Part shown: in pieces, positions 13,824 to 28,141 of the stretch
How the letters are laid out: each line of letters starts with the position of its first letter
How positions within the stretch are numbered: position 1 is the stretch's first letter
Source of the DNA: an uncultured Collinsella sp.
GTDB taxonomy: Bacteria > Actinomycetota > Coriobacteriia > Coriobacteriales > Coriobacteriaceae
Direction of reading: 5' to 3'
DNA length: 36,281 nucleotides
NCBI GenBank assembly: GCA_934643145.1
Contig: CAKUBM010000023.1
Coordinates: forward strand, 1-36,281
The notes under the pieces: model-generated
What the model was told of the DNA's origin: nothing
What the model saw: only the letters and a program-made list of their open reading frames with translations
The model's database searches: none
Made by a program: the position numbers and the translations under genes

Positions 13824-14546
13824 CTAGCCGATGGGTTCGGTGTATTTGGCGCGGTCGGTTCGTTGGATGCGCTTGGAGACGTGGAGCGGGCGTCCGTCGG
13901 TGTCGTAGACGTAGTCGGTGATAAGGATCAGCGCCTGCCCGCGCTCAACATTGAGCAAAAACGCCTCGTTTTGCGAGGCATAGCACACCTCAAAGGTTTT
14001 GTTGCCCTGGGCCGGCGCGCGATGGAACTCCTGGCGCAGTGTGGCGTAGAGCGACCCGTTGATGTCGCGGTCGATGAGCGCCCCAAAGCTCGGCGGCAGA
14101 TACGTGGTTTCCAAGCAGAGCGGCACGTCGTCCAGATAACGCAGGCGGACAAGCTTGACGAGCTTGCTGCCCACGGCGGCATCAAAGAACTTGGCCACGC
14201 TGCCCGCCGCCTTGGCGAAACCCGAGTCCACCGTGCGCGTGGTAGGCTTCATGCCCTGTCCCTCGACCTGCTTGGTATAGCTCGAAAACACCAGATTGTT
14301 CTCGTGCACCTCGGGCGTGTCGGCCACAAAGGCGCCGCGCCCGCGCTCGGTGCGCACCAGGCCCTCATCCACCAGCACCTTAAGCGCGTGGCGCACGGTG
14401 CTGCGCGACAGACCCGATTCTGCCATGAGCTCCATCTCGGATGGCAACTTGTCTCCGCGTGCGTAGGTGCCAGCGGCGATACGGTCGCGCAGCGTGCCCG
14501 CCAGGCGCTCGTATTGGGCCAAGTTCTTTTTCGACGAAGTGCTCAT
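13824..14546 (-). CDS. GntR/HutC-family regulator 1 (UTRA domain)
   Basis: This encodes 240 residues. The N-terminal winged helix has GDKLPSEMELMAESGLSRST and VRHALKVLVDEGLVRTERGRGAFV. The C-terminal UTRA domain (about 95-235) is the effector-binding part, typically sensing a phosphorylated sugar or amino-sugar compound. It is divergent from the SIS gene at 14752. A direct-repeat motif (TGTAT-N6-TGTAT) lies just upstream of its own ribosome site (14556-14574) and again before the SIS gene (14696-14713). I infer a repressor of both genes, relieved by the SIS substrate. Confidence 0.9.
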   Translation of the reverse strand: MSTSSKKNLAQYERLAGTLRDRIAAGTYARGDKLPSEMELMAESGLSRSTVRHALKVLVDEGLVRTERGRGAFVADTPEVHENNLVFSSYTKQVEGQGMKPTTRTVDSGFAKAAGSVAKFFDAAVGSKLVKLVRLRYLDDVPLCLETTYLPPSFGALIDRDINGSLYATLRQEFHRAPAQGNKTFEVCYASQNEAFLLNVERGQALILITDYVYDTDGRPLHVSKRIQRTDRAKYTEPIG

Positions 14547-14555
14547 GCGACCAAC

Positions 14556-14574
14556 CTGTATCTAACTTGTATGC
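14556..14574. promoter_or_regulatory. Putative operator of regulator 1, site A
   Basis: CTGTATCTAACTTGTATGC shares 17 of 18 bases with the site at 14696-14713, if the first C is ignored. The two TGTAT halves are 11 bases apart, about one helical turn. It lies in the leader of the regulator gene, so binding here would give autorepression. Confidence 0.6.
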
Positions 14575-14695
14575 TTGCCGAACCAAGCATGTATCCAACA
14601 TGACAACAAAACCGCTGGTAAATGATTTCTGAAAACCATGGCAGCAAAATTTCTAAGACAAATATAGCATACAACTAGTCGACATCGCAAAGACA

Positions 14696-14713
14696 TGTAT
14701 GTAACTTGTATGC
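14696..14713. promoter_or_regulatory. Putative operator of regulator 1, site B
   Basis: TGTATGTAACTTGTATGC lies about 40 bases before the SIS start at 14752. Weaker partial matches (GCATGTATCC near 14588, GCATACAACT near 14668) lie between sites A and B, which suggests a multi-site control region. Confidence 0.6.
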
Positions 14714-14751
14714 CATCGAGAGCATCAAACGAGAAGAAAGGCTGATGCACG

Positions 14752-15744
14752 ATGACTACTCAGGAACAGGTCAAGGACGTCGTTTCGCAGGTTTTGGCTG
14801 ACAAGGCAGACAAGGGCGGCATCAAGCGCGTCGTGTGGATCGGCGCCGGCGGCTCCAACGGCGGCAACTATCCTGCCCAGTACTTTATGGAGCACGAGGC
14901 CACGCAGGTCGTGAGCTCCAGCTACACCAGCAACGAGTTCGTTCACGCCACCCCGGCCTACGTCAACGAGAACACCCTGGCCGTCGTCGTTTCCATGCGC
15001 GGCACCAAGGAGACCATCGTCGCCGCCCAGGTCGCCAAGGATCACGGCGCCAGCACCATTGCCATTTACGTTGACGAGTCCGGCCTTACCGAGGTCTGCG
15101 ACTACAAAGTTCAGTACGACAGCCTGGCCGTCGACGAGTCCTGCATGGGCCGCACCAACTCCGCCGTCGTGACCATGATCGCCATGGAGCTCACGCAGCA
15201 GACCGAGGGCTATGCCGAGTACGAGACCGCCATGGCCGCCTTCGACCTGGTCGATCCCATCTATCGCAAGGCCGTGGAGTACACCACCCCACTTGCCGCC
15301 AAGTGGGCCGAGCAGAATGCCGACAAGCCCTGCATCAACGTTATGGCTCAGGGCCCGCTCTTTGGTGCCGCCTATGTCTTTAGCATCTGCAACGTTCAGG
15401 AGATGCTGCAGATCGACTCCTGCACCATCAACACCTGCGACTTCTTCCACGGTCCCTTCGAGATCCTGGACAAGCGCACCTCGCTGTTCCAGCTCATCAG
15501 CGTTGGCCGCAGCCGTTGCAACGACGAGCGCGGCATTCGCTTTGTCAACCAGTACGGTGGCGAGCGCGTCTACCAGCTCGACGCCAAGGAGCTCGGTCTC
15601 AACGACATCAAGGACAGCGTGAGCGAGTACTTCAACCACCTGATCTTTGCCCCGATCCTCAACAACGTGTACATGCGCGCGCTCTCTGCCGTCACCCACA
15701 AGGACTACATGACGCGCCGTTACATGTGGAAGCTCGACTACTAA
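14752..15744 (+). CDS. SIS-domain protein 1, FrlB-like deglycase
   Basis: This encodes 330 residues. It has two SIS (sugar isomerase) domains. The first includes VVWIGAGGSNGGNYPAQYF and the Ser/Thr phosphate-binding region VVVSMRGTKETI. The second has CDFFHGPFEI, in which the conserved His-Gly-Pro-Phe-Glu belongs to the fructoselysine-6-phosphate deglycase/AgaS-like branch. The end HKDYMTRRYMWKLDY is shared in form with the other two SIS proteins here. The likely reaction is removal of an amine or amino acid from a sugar phosphate. Start at 14752 with AAAGG upstream. It is divergent from its probable repressor, and its codon use is strongly biased to C/G-ending codons. Confidence 0.85.
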   Translation: MTTQEQVKDVVSQVLADKADKGGIKRVVWIGAGGSNGGNYPAQYFMEHEATQVVSSSYTSNEFVHATPAYVNENTLAVVVSMRGTKETIVAAQVAKDHGASTIAIYVDESGLTEVCDYKVQYDSLAVDESCMGRTNSAVVTMIAMELTQQTEGYAEYETAMAAFDLVDPIYRKAVEYTTPLAAKWAEQNADKPCINVMAQGPLFGAAYVFSICNVQEMLQIDSCTINTCDFFHGPFEILDKRTSLFQLISVGRSRCNDERGIRFVNQYGGERVYQLDAKELGLNDIKDSVSEYFNHLIFAPILNNVYMRALSAVTHKDYMTRRYMWKLDY

Positions 15745-15751
15745 GGGTATT

Positions 15752-15780
15752 GGTTCCGCCGTTCTGCCGAACGGCGGACC
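15752..15780 (+). terminator. Stem-loop after SIS gene 1
   Basis: TCCGCCGTTC (15755-15764) pairs perfectly with GAACGGCGGA (15769-15778) around TGCC, ten bases after the stop codon. No T-run follows, so it may be a stability hairpin rather than a full terminator. Confidence 0.5.
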
Positions 15781-15784
15781 AGCC

Positions 15785-15815
15785 GACACTGCAAACCCAT
15801 CAGAGCGGCACTTGG
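15785..15815 (+). repeat. 31-base post-stop motif, copy 2
   Basis: GACACTGCAAACCCATCAGA and the following GCGGCACTTGG resemble the copies at 10785 and 24045; this one is the most divergent. Confidence 0.5.
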
Positions 15816-15885
15816 GGACGTTCCCTTTCTGCCGGCAGTTAGGGACGTTCCTTTTCTGCCGGCAGTTGGGGAAACTCCTTGTTTC
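15812..15885 (+). repeat. Tandem 27-bp repeat
   Basis: Units at 15812-15838 and 15839-15865 (TTRGGGACGTTCC then CTGCCGGCAG) differ at two or three bases. A degenerate third unit starts at 15866 (TTGGGGAAACTCC). Each full unit ends in the palindrome CTGCCGGCAG. No gene overlaps. Confidence 0.75.
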
Positions 15886-15926
15886 AAGAGATTTCCCGTT
15901 CGCCGATTTGTGTCTTGAAAAATGTA

Positions 15927-15942
15927 TATAACGACTATAACG
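15927..15942. promoter_or_regulatory. Putative operator of regulator 2 upstream of the EamA gene
   Basis: On the minus strand this is CGTTATA-N2-CGTTATA with a 9-base period, the same layout as at 17204-17219 and 23239-23254. It overlaps the likely -10 region (TATAAC) of the EamA gene; a TTGAAA -35 candidate lies near 15915. Confidence 0.6.
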
Positions 15943-15982
15943 TAGTATGAAACATATTGGAAACAATATCGAGGGGGCTGCG

Positions 15983-17065
15983 TTGAAGAAAAGCAATCTG
16001 GGCTATGTGCTGGTGCTGATCGCCGCGCTCATGTGGGGCACCATTGGAATCTACGTCAACGGCATCTCGGCCATGGGCATTACGTCCCAAAGCATGGCGG
16101 CCTTCCGTCTGCTGGTCGGCGCTCTTATCCTGGCGCCCGTGCTGGCGTTTATGGGTTGCCGCCCGGGCGAGGGGACCACGACGGCCCCGGGTCCGCTGGC
16201 CCTGTTTAAGGCGAGCCCCAAAGAGCTCATCCCCTGCGCGCTTGTCGGCATCATCGGCCTTGCCACCGCCAACACACTCTATTACGAGTGCATGCGCGAG
16301 GTGGGCATGTCCACGGCGTCGGTTTTGCTCTACACCTCGCCGGTCTTTGGCTGCATCCTGGGCCGCATGCTCTATAAAGAGCGCGTCACGTCGGTCAAGC
16401 TCGTGGCGATCGCCTGTAACATCCTGGGCTGCGTGCTCGCGGTGACAAACGGCGATCTGTCCGGTTTCCATTTCTCGGTTTGGGGTGTCACCTCGGGCGT
16501 CGTCGCCGGATTGTGCGGCGCGCTGCTTGCGGTGTTCAGCCGCATAGCGACCAAAACCGTGCACCCGCTGGCTGTCACCTTTTGGGGCTTCGTCTTTGGC
16601 GGCGCGGTTATGGCGGCCATCACGGCCCCGTGGCCCGATATGGCGGCTGCTATGTCGCCGCAGCTTATCTTGTTGTTCGCGGGCTTTGGCCTGATTCCCA
16701 CGGCCGTCGCCTACATCCTGTATATGCAAGGCCTGTCCATGGGGCTCGAGACGTCGAAGGTCCCGGTCGTGATGTCGTTCGAGACGGTGGTTACCGTGCT
16801 GCTGGGCATCGGCATCTATGCCGAGTCCGCCGGCGCCGTCAAGGTCCTGGGCATTGTGCTGGTGCTCACGTCCATCCTGATCATGAACACCGACTTCTCC
16901 AAGCTGCGCAACGGCGTCATTGTGAAACGTATTGTCGAGAGCATGACTTTTAAGCCCAACGCGTGGTGGACGGAGAAATCGCAGGACATGGATCTGTTCA
17001 AGGAGCGCACGGGTATCGCGCTGGAGCCCACCGTGCAGGAAAGCCCCTGGTACTTCGTGCGATAG
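15983..17065 (+). CDS. EamA/DMT-family transporter
   Basis: This encodes 360 residues from a TTG start at 15983, chosen because GAGGGGG lies 6-7 bases upstream. The ATG at 15947 has no ribosome site and overlaps the putative operator. About ten membrane helices form two EamA repeats: the first opens LGYVLVLIAALMWGTIGIYV, the second begins near VWGVTSGVVAGLCGALLAVF. A hydrophilic tail of about 50 residues follows the last helix. The family moves small metabolites, often exporting amino acids or sugars. Its place among sugar-amine genes makes export of an amino acid released by the deglycases one possibility, but this is speculative. Confidence 0.87.
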   Translation: MKKSNLGYVLVLIAALMWGTIGIYVNGISAMGITSQSMAAFRLLVGALILAPVLAFMGCRPGEGTTTAPGPLALFKASPKELIPCALVGIIGLATANTLYYECMREVGMSTASVLLYTSPVFGCILGRMLYKERVTSVKLVAIACNILGCVLAVTNGDLSGFHFSVWGVTSGVVAGLCGALLAVFSRIATKTVHPLAVTFWGFVFGGAVMAAITAPWPDMAAAMSPQLILLFAGFGLIPTAVAYILYMQGLSMGLETSKVPVVMSFETVVTVLLGIGIYAESAGAVKVLGIVLVLTSILIMNTDFSKLRNGVIVKRIVESMTFKPNAWWTEKSQDMDLFKERTGIALEPTVQESPWYFVR

Positions 17066-17203
17066 GGGCCAATGCCGAGGCCTGGATCGCGGCGTATCCA
17101 GCCAAGGCTCGCTAACCAACCCCAACGTTTCGAGTACGTTAAACCCGTCAACGGTCGATTTTCACCCGCGAACGGTCTTTATACTAATTAGCAATATAAG
17201 CAA

Positions 17204-17219
17204 CGTATAAGACGTTATA
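17204..17219. promoter_or_regulatory. Putative operator of regulator 2 upstream of the PTS operon
   Basis: CGTATAA (17204-17210) and CGTTATA (17213-17219) are 9 bases apart. An inverted half site, ATAACG, follows at 17226-17231. A TATACT box at 17180-17185 is a possible -10, which would place the operator just downstream of the promoter. Confidence 0.6.
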
Positions 17220-17247
17220 ATGACCATAACGAAAAGGAGGAGGCAAG

Positions 17248-18171
17248 ATGAATCAGATCATTCTCGCATCTCATGGCGGCCTGGCCGCAGGCGCCAAAGA
17301 CACGCTCGAGATGGTTCTCGGCGACGTGTCGAACGTCCACGTCGTGTCGCTTGCTCGTGACGACAAGGAGCCCATCACCAACAAGGTGGACGCCATGATC
17401 GCCACGTTCAACGCGGACGACACCGTCTACGTGCTAACCGATATGCTCGGTAGCTCGGTCAACAACAACATGGTCGAGCTTTCCAAGAACGGCACGAAGT
17501 TCACGGTTGTCAGCGGTTTCAACATCCCGCTGGCGCTCACGCTCGCTATGAGCCCCGCCCCCGTCAAGGGCGCCGAGCTCGCGGCCCTCATCAACGAGGC
17601 CCGCACCGGTCTGACCAACCCCAACGCCCCGGTCGAGGTCGCCGCGGCTCCCGCCAAGAAGGCCAAGGCACCCCGTCACAACGCCGGCCCCGCCAAGATC
17701 GTCCTCGCACGTCTTGACTACCGCCTGCTGCACGGCCAGGTCGTCTTTACCTGGACCACCAAGGTCCAGGCTGAGCGCATCATCGTCGTCGACAACGCTG
17801 CCGCCAACGATGACATCAAGAAGGGCGCTCTTAAGCTAGCCAAGCCCCAGGGCGTGCGCCTGAACGTCTTCACCGTCGAGCGTGCCCTCGCCAAGATGGA
17901 CAAGCTCAACACCCTCGGTGAGCGCGTCATGTTCGTCTTCGGCAACACCGCCGAGATGCTGCAGTTCTGCCAGGGCTACAAGCTCGACGCCATCAACCTA
18001 GGCGCCACCGCCAACCACGACGGTGCCGACCAGATCGGCGGCAAGGACAGCTCCGTTTTCTTCGACGCCAACCAGAAGGCCGACGTCAACCAGCTGCTCG
18101 ACATGGGCATCAAGCTCTATGTCCAGCAGACCCCCACGTATCAGAGCGTCGACATCGACGCCAAGCTGTAA
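17248..18171 (+). CDS. Mannose-family PTS EIIAB fusion
   Basis: This encodes 307 residues, with AAGGAGGAGG upstream. Residues 1-~125 are a mannose-type EIIA with the phospho-histidine H9 in ILASHGGLAAG. An Ala/Pro/Lys-rich linker runs about 127-150. EIIB follows, with its phospho-histidine H162 in RLDYRLLHGQVVFTW. Phosphate passes from HPr to H9, to H162 and then to the incoming sugar. The protein is cytoplasmic, acting on the EIIC-EIID channel encoded next. The first gene of the operon, it follows a putative operator. Fusion of A and B is also seen in E. coli ManX. Codon use is strongly C-biased, suggesting high expression. Confidence 0.93.
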   Translation: MNQIILASHGGLAAGAKDTLEMVLGDVSNVHVVSLARDDKEPITNKVDAMIATFNADDTVYVLTDMLGSSVNNNMVELSKNGTKFTVVSGFNIPLALTLAMSPAPVKGAELAALINEARTGLTNPNAPVEVAAAPAKKAKAPRHNAGPAKIVLARLDYRLLHGQVVFTWTTKVQAERIIVVDNAAANDDIKKGALKLAKPQGVRLNVFTVERALAKMDKLNTLGERVMFVFGNTAEMLQFCQGYKLDAINLGATANHDGADQIGGKDSSVFFDANQKADVNQLLDMGIKLYVQQTPTYQSVDIDAKL

Positions 18172-18207
18172 TCAACCAGGCTTTTGCCTGACTGAAAGGA
18201 GAAGGGT

Positions 18208-19002
18208 ATGAATACGTTCATCAGTGCGGTGCTCGTCGGCCTCGTCGGCGTGTTCTGCATGTGGGACTCCCGCCTGCTCGGTCGTCTTAACTTCGAGCAG
18301 CCCCTCGTTGGCGCTACGCTCGTCGGTCTGCTGCTGGGCGATGTGCCCACCGGCCTCGCCGTCGGTGCCGCCGTCGAGCTCGTGTCCATGGGCCTGGTGC
18401 AGGTCGGCGCAGCCGTCCCGCCCGATATGGTCCTGGGTGGCATCGTGGCCGCTGCCTTCGCATGCCTGACCGATGCTTCCGCCGAGACCGCCATGACGAT
18501 CGCCATCCCGGTCGCCGTCCTGGGTCAGCTCCTCGGCATTGTCTTCCGTTCCATCATCGCCGCCCTCACCCATGTGGCCGATAGCGCGATCGATAACGGC
18601 AAGTTTAAGACCGCCTACCGTATGCACATCTGCGCCGGCTCCGGTCTGTACGCCATCATGTACTTCCTGCCGATCTTCCTGGCCGTCTTTGTCGGCACCG
18701 ACCTGGTCCAGGCCATCGTCAACATGGTTCCCGAGTGGCTGTCCACTGGTCTGAACGTCTCGACCAAGATCATGACTGCCTACGGCTTGGCCCTGCTGCT
18801 CACCATGATGATCAAGAAGGGCATGACCCCGTTCCTGTTCATCGGCTTCCTGCTCGCCGCCTACCTCAACCTGTCCGTCATCGCGGTCGCTCTGATCGGT
18901 GTGTGCCTGGCTATCGTCTTCATGGGCTTCAAGTTCAACGGTTCCCATGCAGCCGCCGGTGTCGATTCCGACTACGATCCGCTCGAAGACGACGAAGACT
19001 AA
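18208..19002 (+). CDS. Mannose-family PTS EIIC
   Basis: This encodes 264 residues and starts 36 bases after EIIAB, with AAAGGAGAAGG upstream. It is a hydrophobic transport subunit of the mannose/fructose/sorbose type. Telling parts are LNFEQPLVGATLVGLLLGDVP near the N-terminus and the run GLVQVGAAVPPDMVLGGI. It forms the sugar channel with EIID. The C-terminus is acidic (DSDYDPLEDDED). The sugar cannot be read from sequence; the surrounding SIS genes suggest an Amadori or other amino-sugar compound. Confidence 0.92.
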   Translation: MNTFISAVLVGLVGVFCMWDSRLLGRLNFEQPLVGATLVGLLLGDVPTGLAVGAAVELVSMGLVQVGAAVPPDMVLGGIVAAAFACLTDASAETAMTIAIPVAVLGQLLGIVFRSIIAALTHVADSAIDNGKFKTAYRMHICAGSGLYAIMYFLPIFLAVFVGTDLVQAIVNMVPEWLSTGLNVSTKIMTAYGLALLLTMMIKKGMTPFLFIGFLLAAYLNLSVIAVALIGVCLAIVFMGFKFNGSHAAAGVDSDYDPLEDDED

Positions 19003-19015
19003 GGAGGAACACACT

Positions 19016-19849
19016 ATGGCAACCGCAACCAAGGACGTGTCCCTGAACAAGAAGGTCAGCCAGTTCTTCTGGCGCTCCTGGGCCATCCAGGCCTCTTGGA
19101 ACTACGAGCGTCAGATGAACATGGGCTTCCTCTACGGCATGGTTCCCACGCTCGACCGCCTCTATCCGGATGAGTCCGACCCCAAGCAGCTCGCTGCTAA
19201 GAAAGAGGCTTACCACCGTCACATGGCGTTCTACAACTGCACCCCGCAGACGAGCGCTTTCGTCCTCGGCCTCGCCGCCTCCATGGAGGAGGAGTACGCC
19301 AAGGATCCCGAGAACTTCGATCCCGATTCGATCAACGCGGTCAAGACCTCGCTCATGGGCCCGCTTTCCGGTATCGGTGACTCCTTCTTCCAGGGCACCA
19401 TCCGCGTCATCGCCTTTGGCCTGGGCGTTCAGCTGGCTCAGCAGGGCTCCATCATGGGCCCGATCCTGGCCATGCTCATCTCCATCGTCCCCTCCGTGCT
19501 GGTCACTTGGTTCGCTGCCAAGATCGGCTACCAGGGCGGCCACGAGTATCTGAGCAAGCTCCAGGGCGGCGACCTCATGGAGAAGCTCATGTATGTCTGC
19601 GGCATCGTGGGTCTTATGTCCGTGGGCGGCATGATCGCTACGCTGATCGGCGCCACCACCCCGCTGCAGTTCGCTGACGGCACCGTCGTCATCCAGGACA
19701 TCCTGGACGGCATGATGCCCCAGATGATCTCCCTCGGCCTCACCGGCCTTATGTACTGGCTCATCAAGAAGAACGTCAACACCGGTTGGCTTCTTGTGAT
19801 CGCCATCGTGGGCGGCATCGCCCTCTCCGCGGCCGGCATCCTGGCCTAG
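19016..19849 (+). CDS. Mannose-family PTS EIID
   Basis: This encodes 277 residues; the start at 19016 has AAGGAGGAAC upstream and lies 13 bases after EIIC. EIID signatures include FFWRSWAIQASWNYERQMN, the run MGPLSGIGDSFFQGTIR, and membrane helices in the C-terminal part (about 125-165 and 195-275). EIID is the second membrane subunit of this PTS class. A hairpin and 197 bases follow before SIS gene 2, which is probably in the same operon. Confidence 0.93.
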   Translation: MATATKDVSLNKKVSQFFWRSWAIQASWNYERQMNMGFLYGMVPTLDRLYPDESDPKQLAAKKEAYHRHMAFYNCTPQTSAFVLGLAASMEEEYAKDPENFDPDSINAVKTSLMGPLSGIGDSFFQGTIRVIAFGLGVQLAQQGSIMGPILAMLISIVPSVLVTWFAAKIGYQGGHEYLSKLQGGDLMEKLMYVCGIVGLMSVGGMIATLIGATTPLQFADGTVVIQDILDGMMPQMISLGLTGLMYWLIKKNVNTGWLLVIAIVGGIALSAAGILA

Positions 19850-19883
19850 TCGCGACCGAGCGTCCAAACGCTTTCCCCGGGGG

Positions 19884-21030: not shown

Positions 21031-21061
21031 TCACAAGTAAGTAAACCTTACGGGTTGATTG

Positions 21062-21096
21062 AAAGGGGATGGGGTTTGCGCCCCGTCCCCTTTTTT
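21062..21096 (+). terminator. Rho-independent terminator of the PTS-SIS operon
   Basis: AAAGGGGATGGGG (21062-21074) pairs with CCCCGTCCCCTTT (21081-21093) around TTTGCG and runs into TTTTTT. It closes the operon that begins at 17248. Confidence 0.92.
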
Positions 21097-21180: not shown

Positions 21181-21190
21181 GGAGATGCGT

Positions 21191-21820
21191 ATGATCAAGG
21201 CAGTGCTGTTTGATATGGACGGCGTGCTGGTCGATACCGAGTGGTTCTACAACCGTCGTCGCGTGGCGTTTATGGAGGAGAAGGGGTTCCACTTTGACGA
21301 GATCCCCGACCTTTCGGGGTCTAACGAGCCTGCCATTTGGGAGGCGCTGGTGCCCGACGATATTGAGCTGCGCGAGCGCCTGCGCGTGGAGTACAAGCAG
21401 GTCTACAGCCCGGACCATCCCGTTCCGTATGCCGAGCTACTCAACGAGCAGACGGAGCCGGTGATGCGCGAGCTACACGAGCGCGGCGTGATGTGCGCCA
21501 TAGCGAGCTCGTCCTATCGTGAGCTGATCGACGAGCTGGTGGAGATCGCCGGTATTGCCGACGTGCTGGACTACACCATCAGCGGCCACGAGTGCAGCGC
21601 GTTTAAGCCTGACCCCGAGATCTACCTGCGCGCCATGGAGGCGCTGGGTGTGGAGCCGGCCGAGTGCCTGGTCATCGAGGACTCGCCTTTGGGCATCGAG
21701 GCCGGCAAGCGCTCTGGCGCCCGCGTCCTGGCGCTGCGCCCGCACGAGGGCGTCAACCTGGACCAGTCCGCTGCCGACGTCGTCATCGACAGCCTGTCCG
21801 ACATTTTGGCCGCTCTGTAG
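21191..21820 (+). CDS. HAD-superfamily phosphatase or phosphoglucomutase-like enzyme
   Basis: This encodes 209 residues. I prefer ATG 21191 because the ribosome site GGGAGGAG ends right at the ATG at 21185, leaving it too little spacing. Motif I FDMDGVLVDTE holds the nucleophile D8 and the acid D10. Motif II is IASSSYREL, the lysine is in SAFKPDPEIYL, and motif IV is VIEDSPLGIEAG. The family includes beta-phosphoglucomutase and small sugar-phosphate phosphatases. The cap domain lies about residues 16-85. It lies after the PTS operon terminator, so any role in sugar-amine use is only positional. Confidence 0.9.
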   Translation: MIKAVLFDMDGVLVDTEWFYNRRRVAFMEEKGFHFDEIPDLSGSNEPAIWEALVPDDIELRERLRVEYKQVYSPDHPVPYAELLNEQTEPVMRELHERGVMCAIASSSYRELIDELVEIAGIADVLDYTISGHECSAFKPDPEIYLRAMEALGVEPAECLVIEDSPLGIEAGKRSGARVLALRPHEGVNLDQSAADVVIDSLSDILAAL

Positions 21821-21914
21821 CGTCAATTCATCGCGAGCAGTGCCGATTCGCGCATTAATTGCGGCAGATGGGCTCATTTTGGCTTCGATTTGGTCCGTTT
21901 GGCTTCGACTCAGA

Positions 21915-22037
21915 CTAAGTGAGTAGACTTTTTGGCGCAGGCCGAGCACAAAGCGTTTCTGCCTTAGTAAAACCGCAGGTCACAGAGGTGGCAGTTTTGG
22001 GTGTGCTCGGCAGATCGTAAAAAGTCTACTCACTTAG
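21915..22037. repeat. 123-bp inverted-repeat element, copy 2
   Basis: The same length and the same 18-bp terminal inverted repeats as at 13551-13673. Here the inner stem (CCGAGCACA with TGTGCTCGG) pairs perfectly. It lies in the 355-base gap between the HAD and YitT genes (21821-22175), in the same orientation as copy 1. No other feature stands out there but a -10 box. Confidence 0.85.
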
Positions 22038-22124
22038 ATTTTTGCCCTTTGGTCGTAGGAGTTGCTGGTCCCGTTTTGGTTGTCGAGAGAGGGGTGAATT
22101 GAGGCGCCCTCTGTCGCTCCATGT

Positions 22125-22130
22125 TACAAT
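22125..22130 (+). promoter_or_regulatory. -10 box (TACAAT) for the YitT gene
   Basis: TACAAT lies 45 bases before the GTG start. A TTGAGG at 22099 is too far (20-base spacer) to be a convincing -35. Confidence 0.4.
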
Positions 22131-22175
22131 CGCCGGCATGCCCCACAACTACATCTGCCTTCGAAGGGAGCCTAC

Positions 22176-23183
22176 GTGGCGAACGCCATCGACCAGCTCA
22201 CGGACCGCGTGCTCGTGCTCGGCCGCCTCACCATCGTCCGCCGCGCCATCACTGCCGTGGCGGTCACCATATCCGCCATTCTGCAGACCTTCCTGATCCA
22301 GGCATTCATTCGGCCTGCCGACCTGCTTCCCAGCGGCCTCACCGGCGTTGCGGTCCTGCTCGATCGCGTAACCTCGCTCGGCGGCATTCATATCGACACC
22401 TCGCTCGGCATGCTCGCGCTCAACATTCCCGTGGCGCTCCTATGCTGGAGTGGCATTAGCAAACGCTTCGTAATCTTCTCGATGATGCAAGTTGTGCTCT
22501 CATCGCTGTTCCTCAACATCTTTCATTTCGCTCCGTTTTTGGGCGACAAGATCATGCTCATCATTTTTGGCGGCGTGGTCTCGGGTCTGGGCGCTGCCAT
22601 CGCGCTCAAGTCCGGCGCATCCACCGGCGGCACCGACTTTATCGCGCTGTGGGTCTCCAACCACACGGGCAAGACTATCTGGGGCGTCATCTTTGGTTTC
22701 AACTGCTTTATCTTGGCGATCTTTGGCTTTATGTTTGGCTGGGACAATGCGGCGTACTCCATCGTGTTCCAATTTATTTCGACCAAGACCATCGACAGTT
22801 TCTATCGTCGCTACGACCGTGTGACGCTGCAGATCACGACGCGCAAGGCAGACGAGGTCATGACCGCCTATGTTGACCATTTTCAGCACGGCATTAGCTG
22901 CGCCGAGGTCATCGGCGGATACAGCCGCGAAAAGATGTACCTGCTGCACGCCGTTGTCTCGACCTACGAGAGCCAGGACATTATCAAGCTGGTGTGCGAC
23001 ATTGATCCCAGCGCCGTGATCAATGTGTTCCACACGCTCAACTTTGTGGGCGGCTGGTGGGGCGGTCATGTCGATGAACCCATGCCCACGGCCGTGCCAG
23101 ATCCGGACAAGCCCGCGCGCATTGCCAGTAGACAGGCGCGCTTGAGCGAGCAGGACAGCCTGCAGCAGGACGACGGCAAGTAA
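22176..23183 (+). CDS. YitT-family membrane protein
   Basis: This encodes 335 residues from a GTG start at 22176, with AGGGAG 7 bases upstream. The N-terminal half has about five membrane helices with family features such as RPADLLPSGLTGVAVLL and LKSGASTGGTDFIALWV. The C-terminal DUF2179 domain (about 220-300) starts near SFYRRYDRVTLQITTRKADEV. An extra ~35-residue hydrophilic tail makes it longer than most family members. Function is not established for the family; transport or sensing has been suggested. Confidence 0.9.
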   Translation: MANAIDQLTDRVLVLGRLTIVRRAITAVAVTISAILQTFLIQAFIRPADLLPSGLTGVAVLLDRVTSLGGIHIDTSLGMLALNIPVALLCWSGISKRFVIFSMMQVVLSSLFLNIFHFAPFLGDKIMLIIFGGVVSGLGAAIALKSGASTGGTDFIALWVSNHTGKTIWGVIFGFNCFILAIFGFMFGWDNAAYSIVFQFISTKTIDSFYRRYDRVTLQITTRKADEVMTAYVDHFQHGISCAEVIGGYSREKMYLLHAVVSTYESQDIIKLVCDIDPSAVINVFHTLNFVGGWWGGHVDEPMPTAVPDPDKPARIASRQARLSEQDSLQQDDGK

Positions 23184-23238
23184 GGATTTGCTGTATGCGG
23201 TATATCGTTTTATCAAACTGAGGTAACATATAAAAAGA

Positions 23239-23254
23239 CGTTATATACGTATTA
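23239..23254. promoter_or_regulatory. Putative operator of regulator 2 at its own gene
   Basis: CGTTATA (23239-23245) and CGTATTA (23248-23254) repeat the 9-base-period layout of the sites at 15927 and 17204. It lies 34 bases before the regulator start, consistent with autoregulation. Confidence 0.6.
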
Positions 23255-23287
23255 GTTATTTCGCTATTTTGATAAGAGTGACCAGAT

Positions 23288-24007
23288 ATGTCCGCACCCA
23301 AAAATGCACCGCTTTACCAGCAGATTTACGATGAGATTAAGGATTCGATCGAGAAGGGTGTTTATGCACCCAAGGAGCGCATTCCGTCTGAGCTTGAGCT
23401 TGCCGAGCAGTACGAGGTAAGCCGCATTACGGTGCGCCGCGCCGTCGAGGAGCTGTGTTCCGACGGCTACCTGGTCAAGCAACAGGGCCGCGGCACGTTT
23501 GTTGCCACGCCGCACATCAACCGCCAGTTCCATGCCACGGCGCTGCAGACGTTTACCGAGCTGTGCACATCGAATGGCATGAAGGCCGGCGCGCATGTGG
23601 TCGATCGCCAGATTGTCCCGGCGCGTCAAAACGAGATGGAGTTTTTTGGCCTGCAGAAGGATGCGCTGCTGCTGCATATTAAGCGCGTGCGCACCGCCGA
23701 TGGCGAGCCCATCTTTGAGGAGAACATCTTTGTGCCGTTTGATCAATATCGCGAGCTATTGACGGCAGACCTTGAGGATAAGTCGATTTTTGCTGAGGTC
23801 GAGCGCGTCGGCGGCACTCCGATTGCCTCGGTTGGCTATCGTTCGGTTGAGGCGGTTCGCGCTAACGCCGAACAGGCGGTCGAGTTGGGTATTGCCCCGC
23901 ACGACCCGCTGCTCAACCTGCGCGCCGGCTTTACCGGCCCCAACGGCGAGCCGGTCCTGATGGGCAAGCAGTACTACGTGGGCAGCCGCTACGTTATGGT
24001 CATGTAG
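23288..24007 (+). CDS. GntR/HutC-family regulator 2 (UTRA domain)
   Basis: This encodes 239 residues. The winged helix is clear (KERIPSELELAEQYEVSRIT then VRRAVEELCSDGYLVKQQGR), and the UTRA domain spans about 90-235. Its own leader carries the CGTTATA direct repeat that also lies before the PTS operon and the EamA gene, so I infer that it controls those. The UTRA domain probably binds a phosphorylated sugar-amine. The ribosome site is weak (AAGAGTG), as often seen for autoregulated repressors. A hairpin follows the stop. Confidence 0.9.
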   Translation: MSAPKNAPLYQQIYDEIKDSIEKGVYAPKERIPSELELAEQYEVSRITVRRAVEELCSDGYLVKQQGRGTFVATPHINRQFHATALQTFTELCTSNGMKAGAHVVDRQIVPARQNEMEFFGLQKDALLLHIKRVRTADGEPIFEENIFVPFDQYRELLTADLEDKSIFAEVERVGGTPIASVGYRSVEAVRANAEQAVELGIAPHDPLLNLRAGFTGPNGEPVLMGKQYYVGSRYVMVM

Positions 24008-24012
24008 CTCTA

Positions 24013-24039
24013 GTTGCGCGGTTTTTCAAACCGCGCAAC
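24013..24039 (+). terminator. Stem-loop after regulator 2
   Basis: GTTGCGCGGTTT pairs perfectly with AAACCGCGCAAC around TTC, six bases after the stop codon. No T-run follows on the plus strand, so termination is uncertain. Confidence 0.5.
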
Positions 24040-24044
24040 GGCTC

Positions 24045-24075
24045 GACGCTGCAAGCCCGCCAGAGCGGCAATCTG
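24045..24075 (+). repeat. 31-base post-stop motif, copy 3
   Basis: GACGCTGCAAGCCCGCCAGA followed by GCGGCAATCTG. CCGC can pair with GCGG. Related to 10785-10815 and 15785-15815. Confidence 0.5.
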
Positions 24076-24079
24076 CAGA

Positions 24080-24147
24080 ATGAGCGTGGATAATCTCCCG
24101 TTTTTGGCTTGGTGACGGGTTCAAAGTGGGAGATTATCCACGCTCAT
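24080..24147. repeat. 68-bp palindrome with 20-bp perfect arms
   Basis: ATGAGCGTGGATAATCTCCC (24080-24099) is the exact reverse complement of 24128-24147, around a 28-base loop. It lies between regulator 2 and recQ. Confidence 0.85.
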
Positions 24148-24154
24148 CCGGAAA

Positions 24155-24176
24155 GCGTCCAAAAATCCACGCTCGT
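24155..24176 (-). repeat. Single ACGAGCGTGG unit
   Basis: Read on the minus strand this is ACGAGCGTGGATTTTTGGAC plus GC, nearly the unit repeated three times at 36119-36190. Its first half resembles the arm of the adjacent palindrome. Confidence 0.55.
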
Positions 24177-24247
24177 TCCCCTTGGATCCCTTTCGGACCG
24201 CAATGCCCGTGGCCGGTAGCCATGCGGCACCGGTCCGCGTGGCGGCG

Positions 24248-24253
24248 TATAAT
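24248..24253 (+). promoter_or_regulatory. -10 box (TATAAT) for recQ
   Basis: A consensus TATAAT lies 32 bases before the recQ start; no convincing -35 box. Confidence 0.55.
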
Positions 24254-24284
24254 CGGCGGCAGATGATTCTGACGTTAGGAAACC

Positions 24285-26261
24285 ATGACCGATAGCATGC
24301 AGCAGGTGGCGCTCGATACGCTCGGCGCCTATTTTGGCTACACCTCGTTTCGCCCAGGCCAGGACCGCATGGTCGATGCGATCCTTGCCGGCCGCGATGC
24401 GCTGGGCGTTATGCCCACGGGCGCCGGCAAGTCTATTTGCTATCAGGTGCCTGCACTTATGCTGCCTGGCATCACCTTTGTGGTGAGCCCGCTGCTGTCG
24501 CTCATGGAGGACCAGACCCGCGCGCTGCTCGCGGCGGGTGCACGCCCCAGTTATCTCAACTCTAGCCTTACGCCCGCCCAGCAAAATACCGTACTCAAAC
24601 GGGCGCGCGAGGGCCGCTACCAGCTTATGTACATTGCGCCCGAGCGCCTGCTCGAGCCACGTTTTCTGGCCTTTGCGCAGGAAGCCGCAACGGCCGGCGG
24701 CATCGGCGTGCCGCTCGTGGCAATTGACGAGGCGCACTGCGTAAGCCAGTGGGGCCAGGATTTCCGCCCCGCCTACCTGCAGATTCGCGAGTTTATCGAT
24801 GCACTGCCGCAGCGCCCCATCGTGGCGGCCTTTACCGCCACGGCGACCGAGCGCGTGCGCGCGGATATTCAGCAGATGCTCGGCCTGCAAAATCCCGCGA
24901 CCGTGGTGACGGGCTTCGACCGCAAGAACCTCTACTTTGGCTGCGAGGAGATGGGCGACAAGGCCAAGGCCGCATGGGTGCGCGACTACGTGATCGCGCG
25001 TTCGAGCGAGAGCGGCATTGTGTATTGCTCCACCCGCAAGACGGTCGATGCTCTGGCCGGCGAGCTTGCCGAGGCGCTGGACCCCAGCGGCATTCGCGTG
25101 GGCCGCTACCATGCCGGCATGGGCAACGACGCCCGTCGCCAGAGCCAGCGCGCCTTTATCGACGACGACATCCAGGTGATGGTCGCCACCAACGCCTTTG
25201 GCATGGGCATCGACAAACCCAACGTTCGTTACGTGATTCACAACAACGTGCCCGAGAGCATCGAGGCCTACTATCAGGAGGCGGGCCGCGCCGGCCGCGA
25301 TGGCGATCCGGCGAGCTGCCATCTGTTGTGGAACGGCAACGATTTTCGCATGCGCCGCTTTTTGATTGACCGCGGCGATGCGGCCGACGAAGCGCTCGAC
25401 GACGAGCAGCGCGCGTGGGCGCTCCAGAACCGTTACCGTCTGCTCAGCCAGATGGAGGGCTACTGCAATACCACCGGCTGCCTGCGCGAATACATGCTGC
25501 GCTACTTTGGCGACGAGGCTGCGGCCGAGCATGCGGCGGCGGGCGCGGACGGCACGGCAGACGAGGCCGAGGGCTGCGGCAACTGCAGCAACTGCCTCAC
25601 GCAGTTCGAGGTCGAGGACGTGACCGACATGGCCCGCGCCATCGTGCGCTACGTGGCCACACGCCCCATGCGTTTTGGCAAGTCGCTCATTGCCGACGTG
25701 CTCCACGGCGGCAATACCGAGCGCATTCGCCAGATGCACTTGGACGAGGATCGCGGCTATGGCGAGCTGTCGAGCGAATCGGTCGGACGCATTAAGGACA
25801 TCATCGGGCAGCTGTGCGGCCGTGGCTACCTGGCCACCTCACAGGGCCAATATCCGGTGGTGGGTCTGGGTCCGCGTGCCGGCGAGGTCGAGGACGAGAC
25901 CTTTGCCTTTACCACTAAGCGTCGCGCGTCCAAGCGCAAGGCGTCGGCGCGCGCCCGTCGTGCGGTGGACTTGCTGCGCGAGGAGGCCGAGCTGGATCAG
26001 CGTCCGCGCGTGGGCGACGACGCCGAGCTGTTCGAGCGCCTGCGTGCCCTCCGCAAGGAGATCTCGACGGAGCTCGAGATGGCACCGTACATGGTTTTCT
26101 CCGACAAGGCCCTGCGCGGTCTGTGCCGTCTGCGCCCGCAGACACGCGATGAGCTTATTCAGGTCAACGGCATCGGCGAGAAAAAGGCCGACAGCTTTGG
26201 CAAACAGTTTATGGCGGCGATTGAAGAGTTTGAGTCCGAACACGCACGGGATGGAGCATAA
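24285..26261 (+). CDS. recQ: ATP-dependent DNA helicase RecQ
   Basis: This encodes 658 residues. It unwinds DNA 3'-5' in recombination and repair. Walker A is MPTGAGKS (G48-K49-S50), the DEAH box is D148-H151 in IDEAHCVSQWGQDFRP, and QEAGRAGRDG is motif VI. The zinc site of the RecQ-C-terminal domain is C399 (GCLREYMLRYFGDE), C431, C434 and C437; the stretch between the first and second cysteine is about 15 residues longer than in E. coli RecQ and is Ala/Asp/Glu-rich. The HRDC domain is at about 575-655. It is followed after two bases by regulator 3, so both are probably co-transcribed. Confidence 0.96.
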   Translation: MTDSMQQVALDTLGAYFGYTSFRPGQDRMVDAILAGRDALGVMPTGAGKSICYQVPALMLPGITFVVSPLLSLMEDQTRALLAAGARPSYLNSSLTPAQQNTVLKRAREGRYQLMYIAPERLLEPRFLAFAQEAATAGGIGVPLVAIDEAHCVSQWGQDFRPAYLQIREFIDALPQRPIVAAFTATATERVRADIQQMLGLQNPATVVTGFDRKNLYFGCEEMGDKAKAAWVRDYVIARSSESGIVYCSTRKTVDALAGELAEALDPSGIRVGRYHAGMGNDARRQSQRAFIDDDIQVMVATNAFGMGIDKPNVRYVIHNNVPESIEAYYQEAGRAGRDGDPASCHLLWNGNDFRMRRFLIDRGDAADEALDDEQRAWALQNRYRLLSQMEGYCNTTGCLREYMLRYFGDEAAAEHAAAGADGTADEAEGCGNCSNCLTQFEVEDVTDMARAIVRYVATRPMRFGKSLIADVLHGGNTERIRQMHLDEDRGYGELSSESVGRIKDIIGQLCGRGYLATSQGQYPVVGLGPRAGEVEDETFAFTTKRRASKRKASARARRAVDLLREEAELDQRPRVGDDAELFERLRALRKEISTELEMAPYMVFSDKALRGLCRLRPQTRDELIQVNGIGEKKADSFGKQFMAAIEEFESEHARDGA

Positions 26262-26263
26262 CG

Positions 26264-27028
26264 ATGGCAACCGATAGTAAAACCGAGCGCACCGAGCGCA
26301 CTGACGTGCCCGCCGTGCCGCTGTACCAGCAGGTCATGGATGACCTGAAGGGCGAGATCGCGCGCGGCGTATATCCGACTGGCTCGCGCATTCCTTCCGA
26401 GATGGAGCTCGCGAAGTCCTACGGCGTGGGGCGCATCACCGTGCGCCGCGCCATCGAGGAGCTGTCGCGCGCGGGGTACCTTAACCGCCAGCAGGGGAGG
26501 GGCACCTTTGTATGCGCTCCCAAGCTCAAGCGCAAGATTGTCCAAAAAGGCGATGTCCAGAGCTTTACCGAGGGCTGTGCTGCCAACGATATGGTGGCGG
26601 GCGCGCGTCTGGTGTCGCGCACGGTGGTCGCGGCGACGCGCGAAGACGCGGCGTTTTTTGGCGTGGAACCCGGCTGCGAGCTTATCGTGGTCGAGCGCGT
26701 GCGTACGGCCGACGGCATCCCCGTCATGCTCGAGAACAACGCCTTTGTGTTGGTTGATCACCCGTATCTGCAAACGCTGGCCGACGAGGACCTTACCGAC
26801 AACTCGATCTTTGCGCTTGTTGCAGAGCACTCGGGTCGTTCGCCGCTCAAATCCGATCCCTGCACGGTGGAGATTGCGCTTGCCGATGCTCAGACGGCCC
26901 CGCTGCTCGAGGTCCCGATTGGCGAGCCGCTCTTCTACATGGAGGCGTACTTTACCGATTTTGATGAGCGACCTCTGCTGCTCGGCCGCCAAAAGATCGT
27001 GGGCTCGCGCTACGTGTTCGACATCTAA
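26264..27028 (+). CDS. GntR/HutC-family regulator 3 (UTRA domain)
   Basis: This encodes 254 residues and starts two bases after the recQ stop codon, with GGATGGAG inside recQ as ribosome site. Winged helix: GSRIPSEMELAKSYGVGRIT then VRRAIEELSRAGYLNRQQGR. The UTRA domain covers about 100-250. It lies just upstream of SIS gene 3, whose promoter region carries two ATAGAACA-type direct repeats (27038 and 27100), so I infer that it controls that gene. It resembles regulator 2 in length and layout, so the two could be paralogues. Confidence 0.9.
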   Translation: MATDSKTERTERTDVPAVPLYQQVMDDLKGEIARGVYPTGSRIPSEMELAKSYGVGRITVRRAIEELSRAGYLNRQQGRGTFVCAPKLKRKIVQKGDVQSFTEGCAANDMVAGARLVSRTVVAATREDAAFFGVEPGCELIVVERVRTADGIPVMLENNAFVLVDHPYLQTLADEDLTDNSIFALVAEHSGRSPLKSDPCTVEIALADAQTAPLLEVPIGEPLFYMEAYFTDFDERPLLLGRQKIVGSRYVFDI

Positions 27029-27037
27029 CGTCCACAG

Positions 27038-27056
27038 ATAGAACAACATAGAACAA
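27038..27056. promoter_or_regulatory. Putative operator of regulator 3, distal site
   Basis: ATAGAACAACATAGAACAA is a direct repeat of ATAGAACA with a 10-base period, ten bases after the regulator stop codon. It differs from the proximal site (27100-27118) at two positions. Confidence 0.65.
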
Positions 27057-27071
27057 ATTTGCCGAAATGAC

Positions 27072-27118
27072 TTCACCTGCGGTAGCTCGCGTGGTATAAA
27101 TAGGACAACATAGAACGA
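27072..27118 (+). promoter_or_regulatory. Promoter of SIS gene 3 with proximal operator
   Basis: TTCACC (27072-27077), a 17-base spacer and TATAAA (27095-27100) make a plausible promoter. The second operator copy, ATAGGACAACATAGAACGA (27100-27118), begins at the last base of the -10 box and covers the expected start of transcription, a typical repressor position. Confidence 0.6.
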
Positions 27119-27172
27119 TCGCAGGTACGAGCTGCCGTCGCTCAAGGCCGTCACACAGGGAGGAACATCAGC

Positions 27173-28141
27173 ATGAACGCACATGATCTGGTCCAGGAAA
27201 TTATCGGGCGCAAGGGTAAGATCGAGAACGTCTTTTGGATCGCCTGCGGCGGTTCGATGATCGACCTGATGCCTGCCAACGAGCTGCTCAAGCGCGAGGC
27301 CGCCACGTTTACCTCCACGGTCTACACCGCGCGTGAGTTCTGCCTGATGGTTCCCAAGAGCCTTGGCGAGAAGTCGCTCGTCATCGCCTGCAGCCATAGC
27401 GGCAATACGCAGGAGGTGGTCGACGGCTGCGAGATGGCGCTGGCCGCCGGCGCCGAGATCGTCGCCATGACCGACTGCGAGGGCTCCAAGATCGACAACG
27501 GCAAGTGGACCACCTGGGTCTACCCGTGGGGCGAGGGCGTGTCGCAGGCCGAGGTGCCGCAGGGCATCGGCGCTCTGATCGCCGCCGAGCTGCTCGATCA
27601 GCAGGAGGGCTACGAGGCGCTCGCCGACATGTACGCCGGCCTCAAGCAGATGGACGCGCTGCTGCCCGCTGCGCGCGAGAAGGTCAACGCCGAGCTGGGC
27701 GCCCGCTTCGCCGAGCTCTGCCAGCAGCACGAGTTCTTCTACATCCTGGGTTCCGGCCCCAACTTTAGCCAGACCTATGCCATGGCCATCTGCTCGCTCA
27801 TGGAGATGCAGTGGCAGCACTGCTGCTACATCCACTCCGGCGAGTACTTCCACGGCCCCTTCGAGGCCACCGAGCCCGGCGTGTTCTACTTTGTGCAGCT
27901 CGGTGCCGGCGAGTGCCGCCCCATGGAGGAACGCGCGCTTGCGTTCCTCAACACGCACACCGACACGATCATGGTGCTCGACGCGCTCGAGTACGGCGTG
28001 GGCGAGGTGCCCGCCAGCGTGCGTTCGTTCCTTGAGCCGATCTTCTTCTACGCGATGAGCTGCGAGCTGCGTGCCGCCCGCGGCAAGGTCTTCGACCACA
28101 GCCCCGAGGTTCGTCGCTACATGGGCATCGAGCAGTACTAA
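27173..28141 (+). CDS. SIS-domain protein 3, FrlB-like deglycase
   Basis: This encodes 322 residues, with GGGAGGA upstream. Two SIS domains: VFWIACGGSMIDLMPANELL and IACSHSGNTQEVVDG (the S-G-N-T phosphate loop is the most classical of the three paralogues) in the first; HSGEYFHGPFEATEPG in the second. It ends VRRYMGIEQY. It is more divergent than proteins 1 and 2 and sits with its own regulator and operator, so its substrate probably differs. No transporter gene adjoins it; the PTS at 17248 or another one must supply the substrate. Confidence 0.86.
   Translation: MNAHDLVQEIIGRKGKIENVFWIACGGSMIDLMPANELLKREAATFTSTVYTAREFCLMVPKSLGEKSLVIACSHSGNTQEVVDGCEMALAAGAEIVAMTDCEGSKIDNGKWTTWVYPWGEGVSQAEVPQGIGALIAAELLDQQEGYEALADMYAGLKQMDALLPAAREKVNAELGARFAELCQQHEFFYILGSGPNFSQTYAMAICSLMEMQWQHCCYIHSGEYFHGPFEATEPGVFYFVQLGAGECRPMEERALAFLNTHTDTIMVLDALEYGVGEVPASVRSFLEPIFFYAMSCELRAARGKVFDHSPEVRRYMGIEQY

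Follow-up and report, generated by a model that had tools for sequence, protein, structure and literature searches.

A candidate PTS-fed cluster for sugar-amine catabolism in Collinsella, probably related to the gfr systems without being one of them

Gene content of the cluster

The gene cluster described here lies at positions 13824-28141 of a 36,281-nucleotide stretch of DNA (contig CAKUBM010000023.1, hereafter the window) from an uncultured Collinsella sp., and it comprises a mannose-family phosphotransferase system (PTS), three genes for SIS-domain proteins (SIS1, SIS2 and SIS3) and three genes for GntR/UTRA regulators (UTRA1, UTRA2 and UTRA3), which we propose to serve the catabolism of sugar-amine (Amadori-type) compounds. 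This composition, already proposed in an initial annotation made from the letters of the sequence, was confirmed by Pfam and by the coordinates of the genes (Table 1): the SIS domain exceeded the Pfam cut-off of 25 bits in SIS1, SIS2 and SIS3 (32.8, 62.5 and 30.9 bits, respectively), and the UTRA and GntR domains exceeded theirs in all three regulators. The components were correctly listed, but not their order, as the SIS genes do not all follow the PTS: SIS1 precedes it and SIS2 comes after it. The EamA, HAD, YitT, recQ and cyclase-family genes of Table 1 were missing from that annotation. Start codons were chosen by eye, and the EIID, SIS2, HAD and cyclase queries bore one or two extra N-terminal residues.

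Among the 31 open reading frames (ORFs) of the window scanned against family libraries, no sugar kinase was found, nor a PfkB (FrlD-type) kinase, a xylose-isomerase-like TIM barrel (FrlC-type), a kinase FraD, an asparaginase FraE or a fra transporter, and no protein of the NagA, KbaY or KbaZ types was seen. Rfam recognized no RNA family in the window and ARAGORN no tRNA. SIS1 is 98-99% identical in 18 Collinsella loci, and sequence comparison identifies the host as Collinsella aerofaciens or a very close relative. That the three SIS genes lie together goes beyond chance. When SIS2 was searched (E up to 0.001) against the 2.1 Mb of the nearest genome compared, just four SIS proteins came up: SIS1, SIS2, SIS3 and a fourth of low score (48 bits), encoded by an open frame of 642 codons, which is probably GlmS. 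In the one-contig genome G003 the three genes lie within about 15 kb, and more SIS genes are found elsewhere.

Table 1. Features of the cluster and its immediate surroundings (positions are those of the window)
Feature	Position	Strand	Basis
UTRA1, GntR/UTRA regulator divergent from SIS1	13824..14546	-	Pfam UTRA + GntR above cut-off
Two copies of TGTAT[CG]TAACTTGTATGC, putative UTRA1 operators, between UTRA1 and SIS1	14557..14713 (copies at 14557, 14696)	.	
SIS1, FraB-related sugar-amine-phosphate deglycase (predicted), atypical signature EMLQ...NxC[DE]FFHG	14752..15744	+	
EamA-family (DMT) transporter, putative exporter of freed amine/amino acid	15947..17065	+	Pfam EamA
ACGTTATAATGACCATAACG, putative operator or promoter element just 5' of EIIAB	17212..17231	.	
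PTS EIIAB, mannose family	17248..18171	+	Pfam EIIA-man, PTSIIB_sorb
PTS EIIC	18208..19002	+	Pfam EII-Sor; tree
PTS EIID	19016..19849	+	Pfam EIID-AGA; tree
SIS2, sugar-amine-phosphate deglycase (predicted), FraB-type catalytic residues	20047..21030	+	
Terminator-like hairpin 3' of SIS2	21061..21094	+	15-pair stem, T tail
HAD phosphatase, beta-PGM/YqaB subfamily, conserved behind SIS2	21191..21820	+	
YitT-family membrane protein	22176..23183	+	Pfam YitT_membrane, DUF2179
GACGTTATATACGTAT, possible UTRA2 autoregulatory site	23237..23252	.	weak
UTRA2, GntR/UTRA regulator, likely of the PTS-SIS2 unit	23288..24007	+	Pfam UTRA + GntR
recQ, between UTRA2 and UTRA3	24285..26261		
UTRA3, GntR/UTRA regulator of SIS3 (predicted)	26264..27028	+	Pfam UTRA + GntR
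Tandem pair ATAG[AG]ACAACATAGAAC, putative UTRA3 operators 5' of SIS3	27038..27116 (27038, 27100)	.	
SIS3, FrlB/FraB-type deglycase (predicted), clade found in kinase-type operons	27173..28141	+	
Cyclase-family (arylformamidase-like) gene after SIS3, variable neighbour	28227..28874	+	

Phylogeny and active sites of the SIS proteins

In two trees, the first of 48 and the second of 47 proteins, SIS1, SIS2 and SIS3 form three separate groups inside the clade that holds Bacillus subtilis FrlB and Salmonella FraB (support 100/97; 99/97). The SIS1 clade joins FraB and the solved chain 3fkj, presumably STM0572 (99/97; 100/96), the SIS2 clade (100/100; 100/99) includes a SIS protein of Enterococcus faecium megaplasmids that is 54% identical to SIS2, and SIS3 groups with SIS proteins of kinase operons (100/99; 100/100). 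The approximately unbiased (AU) test rejected SIS1 and SIS2 as sisters (p 0.010), as well as the forced placement of each protein with GfrF and E. coli FrlB (p 0.0007 for SIS1, 0.0095 for SIS2 and 0.0042 for SIS3), in sets that were chosen after the first tree had been seen and with a GfrF/FrlB set that is no clade in either tree, which aids rejection. None of the three proteins groups in the trees with GfrF-type enzymes (we take 2a3n to be Salmonella GfrF), nor with the GfrE-like protein of E. faecium or 2aml; the GfrE and GfrF stand-ins of E. faecium (L050) were assigned from operon layout and sequence comparison. Grouping with glucosamine- or tagatosamine-phosphate enzymes, an outcome that would have spoken against the initial annotation by its own terms, was likewise not observed, GlmS and AgaS both falling outside, on long branches like that of E. 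coli FrlB; AgaS, whose branch is very long, was in the first tree only.

Among solved chains, FraB, 3fkj and B. subtilis FrlB come closest, 9otj being taken as FraB from its 93% identity to an annotated FraB, and SIS1-3 are only 33-41% identical to the characterized FraB/FrlB relatives. The NCBIfam deglycase match is to the fructoselysine 6-phosphate deglycase model, at 58-119 bits against a cut-off of 430, and SIS2 scored 87 bits with the GlmS model versus 73 bits with the deglycase model. By their position in the trees, SIS1-3 belong among the predicted sugar-amine-6-phosphate deglycases, in the alpha-type branch of Salmonella FraB and Bacillus FrlB. The Glu-x15-His pair of FraB, which we take to be the catalytic E214 and H230, is in register in all three. 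The Amadori-type kinship put forward in the initial annotation is upheld by this lineage and by the retained pair. A conserved general acid and base are described for FraB and FrlB in PMC9609667.

Among the 120 matches listed for SIS1, the closest of 1123 and with fragments included, 115 carry E-MLQ together with a Cys before [DE]FFHG and 5 lie outside this pattern. In the corresponding search with SIS3 (120 listed of 585, again the closest and with fragments), 113 carry E-MQW (112) or E-MQR (1) without a Cys before FFHG, and 7 lie outside. Because its signature is odd, SIS1 is the outlier and, judged by these residues, the best candidate for a new specificity among the three; the third SIS protein, for which the new specificity had been suggested, is not the best bet. 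As for the substrates, the FrlB and FrlD of B. subtilis are described as preferring alpha-glycated amino acids to epsilon-glycated lysine (PMC12632257), and the substrate of FraB is given as 6-phosphofructose-aspartate (PMC4941530 and PMC9609667). Since these relatives act on alpha-linked compounds, alpha-linked fructosyl-amino acids or a related class are, by analogy, more likely substrates here than epsilon-fructoselysine.

The importer and the SIS1-PTS-SIS2 module

In a tree of EIIC plus EIID from 22 systems, Salmonella GfrCD not among them, the window PTS falls in a 13-row clade (100/100) with PTS of E. faecium megaplasmids and lactobacilli, apart from the gfr-like PTS of E. faecium and of another Collinsella locus, a group with a support of 91/94 only. 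This placement sets the window PTS apart from the gfr-like ones.

A scan of GTDB genomes with the SIS1 alignment gave 106 loci encoding a relative, of which the best 80 were analysed; neighbours up to 9.5 kb from SIS1 were labelled by their best BLAST match, and distant genes may be mislabelled. A PTS accompanies SIS1 in 57 of the 80 loci, a kinase in 16, neither in 7 (six of which have less than 7 kb on one side of SIS1) and both in none. When the count is limited to the 54 loci whose flanks both reach 7 kb or more, 42 have a PTS and a SIS2-type gene, 11 a FrlD-type kinase and one (L122) neither; outside the C. aerofaciens group, 27 of 39 such loci have the PTS form and 11 the kinase form. 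The PTS form was found in Collinsella, Enorma, Atopobium, Olsenella, uncultured Coriobacteriaceae, Pediococcus, Lactobacillus and Enterococcus, and the kinase form in Lachnospiraceae and other clostridia. Ten loci show a FrlC-type TIM barrel, and three of the kinase form that were read gene by gene (L101, L111 and L123) have, by eye, ABC-sugar-importer-like genes beside them, the kinase of L111 scoring 168 bits against a cut-off of 247. Such an exchange of PTS and kinase beside SIS1 would follow if both routes yielded the same product, and it supports the proposal that a PTS stands in place of a kinase in this cluster.

On this synteny, SIS1-(EamA)-PTS-SIS2-(HAD) forms a single conserved module that occurs in Coriobacteriia, Lactobacillus, Pediococcus and Enterococcus. 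Loci of Collinsella, other Coriobacteriaceae and Lactobacillaceae retain a UTRA gene that diverges from SIS1, and the module ends with UTRA2 in Collinsella, Olsenella and related loci. EamA lies directly 3' of SIS1 in 30 of the 80 loci, 18 of them from the C. aerofaciens group or Collinsella sp. BA40, and EamA genes are also present in two other Collinsella SIS/PTS loci (L145 and L036). Many PTS-type loci, though not all, have HAD behind the SIS2-type gene. Genes of the YitT family recur near SIS1/SIS2 loci of distant species (L071, L072, L073, L092, L123 and L125), lying between two SIS genes in L123, and it is possible that the YitT-family protein is a transport partner of SIS/PTS loci.

A FraE-like asparaginase (29-34% identical) in five loci of uncultured Coriobacteriaceae type was considered as a pointer to fructose-asparagine and was not used. 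It follows HAD in L074 and L075 and lies about 4 to 9 kb upstream in L079, L080 and L081, and a gene that by eye is CAAX-protease-like accompanies it in four of the five; because of this varied position and companion, it may belong to the background neighbourhood.

A separable SIS3 unit

SIS3, at least 92% identical, occurs in 22 of 43 genomes of the genus and follows recQ-UTRA3 in every context read (L029, L037, L039, L138, L139 and L140); in L034, recQ runs directly to metA. Collinsella tanakaei and related species have the PTS module and no SIS3. Paralogues of SIS3 (61-76% identical) lie in operons with a YfcC-type transporter, a FrlC-like TIM barrel and a FrlD-like kinase, to which an amidohydrolase is added in those read, except L026, and relatives of UTRA3 occur in these frl-like operons as well. 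Of the 22 SIS3 genomes, 13 have a SIS paralogue of 75-76% and 20 have a FrlD-like kinase (at least 93% identical) elsewhere; G021 and G035 show no such kinase at E up to 1e-20. The claim that no kinase is present holds for the scanned ORFs of the window, but not for most of these genomes. The five solo kinases read (L132-L136) adjoin a HAD gene and are without SIS, TIM barrel or transporter, the sequence of L133 ending just behind the kinase. A different arrangement is seen in three of the five loci named Lactobacillus (L110, L119 and L120), where a UTRA-SIS1-PTS-SIS2-SIS3-clade-UTRA run has gaps of about 260 bases or less.

From its genomic contexts, SIS3 is a separable regulator-operator-deglycase unit behind recQ. 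What had been described as a three-branch region is better described as one module (SIS1-PTS-SIS2-HAD) plus a separable UTRA3-SIS3 unit, although the three Lactobacillus loci do join all three SIS types to one PTS. The cyclase gene was rejected as a core pathway enzyme, being present in only 3 of the 17 SIS3 loci that reach LDH (20 searched).

Operator-like repeats

Repeats resembling operators were searched for with shuffles that preserved base composition only. TGTAT[CG]TAACTTGTATGC has only two matches in the window at up to 3 mismatches, against a mean of 0.0 in 20 shuffles. The core of ACGTTATAATGACCATAACG, CTATAATGACCATAACG, lies at the start of EIIAB, or just ahead of it, in L070, L071, L077 and L088, all outside C. 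aerofaciens (up to 4 mismatches), and, as ACGTTATAATGACCATAACG holds TATAAT, it may be part of the promoter itself. For GACGTTATATACGTAT, one related match (L073) was found outside C. aerofaciens among the loci scanned. The pair ATAG[AG]ACAACATAGAAC, with its copies 62 bases apart, precedes SIS3 in all 22 SIS3 genomes (up to 2 mismatches), and frl-like operons carry related sites, singly or in pairs, ahead of YfcC. An extra near-match, ATAGAAGATCATAGAAC, is present in 12 genomes; a reading of 12 kb of its surroundings in G003 revealed no recognizable SIS, PTS or kinase gene. Matches to the SIS3 operator away from SIS3 numbered 18 in the 43 genomes, versus 25 for a backward-pattern control. The general scans were equally unremarkable: the promoter scan gave 6 against a shuffle mean of 4.7 (sd 2.1), within one standard deviation, and 12 terminator-like sites were counted in the region against a shuffle mean of 14.1. 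The different repeats before SIS1, the PTS and SIS3, putative sites as they are, support a separate control of the units, in agreement with the initial annotation.

Other features of the neighbourhood

Long inverted repeats, possibly mobile or regulatory, were noticed by eye between HAD and YitT (21821-22175) and between UTRA2 and recQ (24008-24284), and repeated units GGGACGTTCC[CT]TTTCTGCCGGCAGTT between SIS1 and EamA (15745-15946). A gene that by eye is an IS110-type transposase lies just before EamA in G034 (L140 391-1665), where no SIS1 was found, and a similar one between UTRA2 and recQ in G003 (L029 14013-15116). The MetA protein at 30377-31303 is above the NCBIfam cut-off for the acetyl type and below that for the succinyl type. 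In the C. aerofaciens-like genome G003 another SIS and PTS cluster with a weak kinase match (L030 9413-18928) starts about 850 bases past an M16 peptidase gene; the window stops about 300 bases past its own M16 gene, a range too short to reveal an L030-like cluster.

Interpretation and alternatives

We propose, with a probability of about 0.6, that this cluster serves the PTS-fed catabolism of sugar-amine (Amadori-type) compounds and is related to gfr but no member of it. From gene content, lineage, catalytic residues, synteny, the mutual exclusion of PTS and kinase in SIS1 loci and the operator-like repeats, we infer the following scheme of substrates, reaction, accessory roles and induction. 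The mannose-family PTS would import the compound and phosphorylate it, probably at C6, and SIS2, right behind the PTS, and SIS1, with its own regulator, would split different phosphorylated sugar-amines, releasing hexose 6-phosphate and the amine or amino acid. Export of the amine may fall to EamA, as judged from its family for both direction and substrate, and HAD may remove a dead-end phosphate. The third deglycase would be SIS3, which has a UTRA3-operator unit to itself and would receive its substrate from the window PTS or from a FrlD-like kinase elsewhere. A bolder version, offered tentatively and in our estimate rather more likely wrong than right, makes SIS1 the founder of an unrecognized deglycase class with its own substrate, in which the constant EMLQ...NxC[DE]FFHG replaces the EMQW...[HN]xGE of most FraB-type enzymes; SIS2 and SIS1 would then stand behind one promiscuous PTS feeding two to three sugar-amine phosphates, each branch under its own UTRA regulator, with the importer core also on E. 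faecium megaplasmids.

Several observations weigh against the proposed scheme. The altered residues of SIS1 could mean a different chemistry, and the alpha/epsilon preference is borrowed from enzymes only distantly identical in a family in which specificity can shift. SIS1 is dispensable, none having been seen in the SIS3-bearing draft genomes G032 and G034 or in the E. faecium megaplasmid stretches read, and in the clostridial loci L102 and L130 it stands beside a PTS of the gfr-like side of the PTS tree. HAD is absent from several PTS-type loci and is separated from SIS2 by the terminator-like hairpin. Moreover, SIS3 and its nearest kin are compatible with a kinase route as well as with a PTS route.

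This last point leads to the most serious alternative, to which we grant somewhat less than an even chance: SIS3 would be unrelated to the window PTS, a remnant of a kinase-type frl-like operon that lies beside the module by chance and acts on the product of a FrlD-like kinase whose gene lies elsewhere. Its nearest paralogues do lie in YfcC-FrlC-FrlD-type operons, mostly with an amidohydrolase, several of which have a UTRA gene together with one or two related operator sites in front; the FrlD-like kinase of most SIS3 genomes is SIS-less in the five contexts read, and C. tanakaei does without SIS3. However, two SIS3 genomes have no such kinase, in the three Lactobacillus loci a SIS3-clade gene comes immediately after SIS2 within the PTS run, and co-occurrence within one species complex is confounded by descent.

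The initial annotation had leaned on a gfr-type system, in which epsilon-fructoselysine and glucoselysine enter through the PTS and their 6-phosphates are cleaved by the SIS proteins. The same PTS class is indeed combined with SIS deglycases there, the NCBIfam match points to fructoselysine 6-phosphate, though far below its cut-off, and Collinsella reportedly uses fructoselysine. In its details the analogy fails, as none of the three SIS proteins is of GfrE or GfrF type, the GfrF/FrlB placement was rejected, the PTS is outside the gfr-like group and the genus has a separate gfr-like locus with PTS and epimerase genes, as read in L031 and L145; we consider such a system unlikely. That locus, in G002 (L031), has a GfrF-type SIS, a PTS and a TIM barrel, and in G024 (L145) additionally an EamA gene and a SIS weakly like GfrE (28% over 63%); a GfrF-type protein (at least 50% identity) is found in 18 of the 43 genomes, 12 among the 24 with SIS1 and 6 without, the G006 match being partial and the G018 genes broken up. 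Far less probable still is a role of the SIS proteins as isomerases or deaminases of amino-sugar phosphates (GlmS-, NagB-II- or AgaS-like) behind a PTS for glucosamine or galactosamine. They share the SIS and PTS families with such systems and match the GlmS and NagB-II models weakly, the SIS2 score for GlmS exceeding that for the deglycase; but GlmS and AgaS stand outside the SIS1-3 clade, the solved chains closest to them are those of FraB, 3fkj and FrlB of B. subtilis, NagA, KbaY and KbaZ types were not seen among the ORFs scanned, and related SIS1 genes accompany FrlD-type kinases.

Heated food exposes gut bacteria to sugar-amine compounds, and frl or gfr labels often serve to infer which of these a given bacterium takes. 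The present cluster invites a 'fructoselysine use' label, given its below-cut-off match to the NCBIfam model, yet its enzymes and PTS represent another branch. A substrate assignment for the proposed cluster would re-label many genomes because the module is spread over Coriobacteriia, lactobacilli and enterococci, partly on E. faecium megaplasmids, and the SIS1 signature offers a simple test for a new enzyme specificity. A literature search by title and abstract gave no description of a SIS1-PTS-SIS2 module; Wolf et al. 2019 and Miller et al. 2015 may describe the module or the locus, and the literature consulted further comprises several other papers (PMC12675984, PMC9749803, PMC10134792, PMC9501902, PMC12136445, PMC4697335, PMC12051030).

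Comparison with known systems

On E. faecium megaplasmids (CP063550 and CP063649; L042 and L046), a PTS-SIS-regulator-HAD operon has a PTS of the same branch. Like the window, it encodes EIIA-IIB-IIC-IID, a SIS2-type protein and HAD, but it has a sigma-54-interacting regulator in place of UTRA, separate EIIA and EIIB, and, in the stretches read, no SIS1 or EamA. The plasmids come from rectal swabs, and the operon is flanked on either side by insertion sequence elements no more than about 3 kb away. PMC10644037 ties frlB_2 and mannose PTS genes to infecting isolates, possibly but not necessarily those of the megaplasmid operon. That the operon is the ptsD colonisation locus (ptsD: PMC3846456) was considered and is not claimed, no match between the two having been made.

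Salmonella FraB, the 6-phosphofructose-aspartate deglycase, is the closest characterized lineage to SIS1 and near that of SIS2, with the same Glu/His register; SIS1 differs in lacking the Trp of EMQW and in having a Cys two positions ahead of FFHG. A kinase, a C4-dicarboxylate-type transporter and the asparaginase FraE belong to the fra locus read (L043), whereas the window has none of the three. B. subtilis FrlB (3eua) of the kinase-type frl operons belongs to the same SIS clade, and paralogues of SIS3 sit in such operons, but no FrlD kinase, frl-type sugar importer or FrlC-type epimerase was found in the window; the E. coli-type frl operon likewise has FrlD and FrlC next to FrlB, unlike the window, as judged from its 31 scanned ORFs. 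Salmonella gfrABCDEF combines, as the window does, a mannose-family PTS with two SIS deglycases and no kinase. However, its GfrE- and GfrF-type SIS and gfr-like PTS are absent from the window, which has one fused EIIAB in place of GfrA and GfrB, UTRA regulators, EamA and HAD genes, and SIS genes flanking the PTS on both sides. The type of cluster is therefore already known, and what is new, as far as the sequences tell, is that the enzymes and the PTS belong to a branch other than the fructoselysine and gfr ones.

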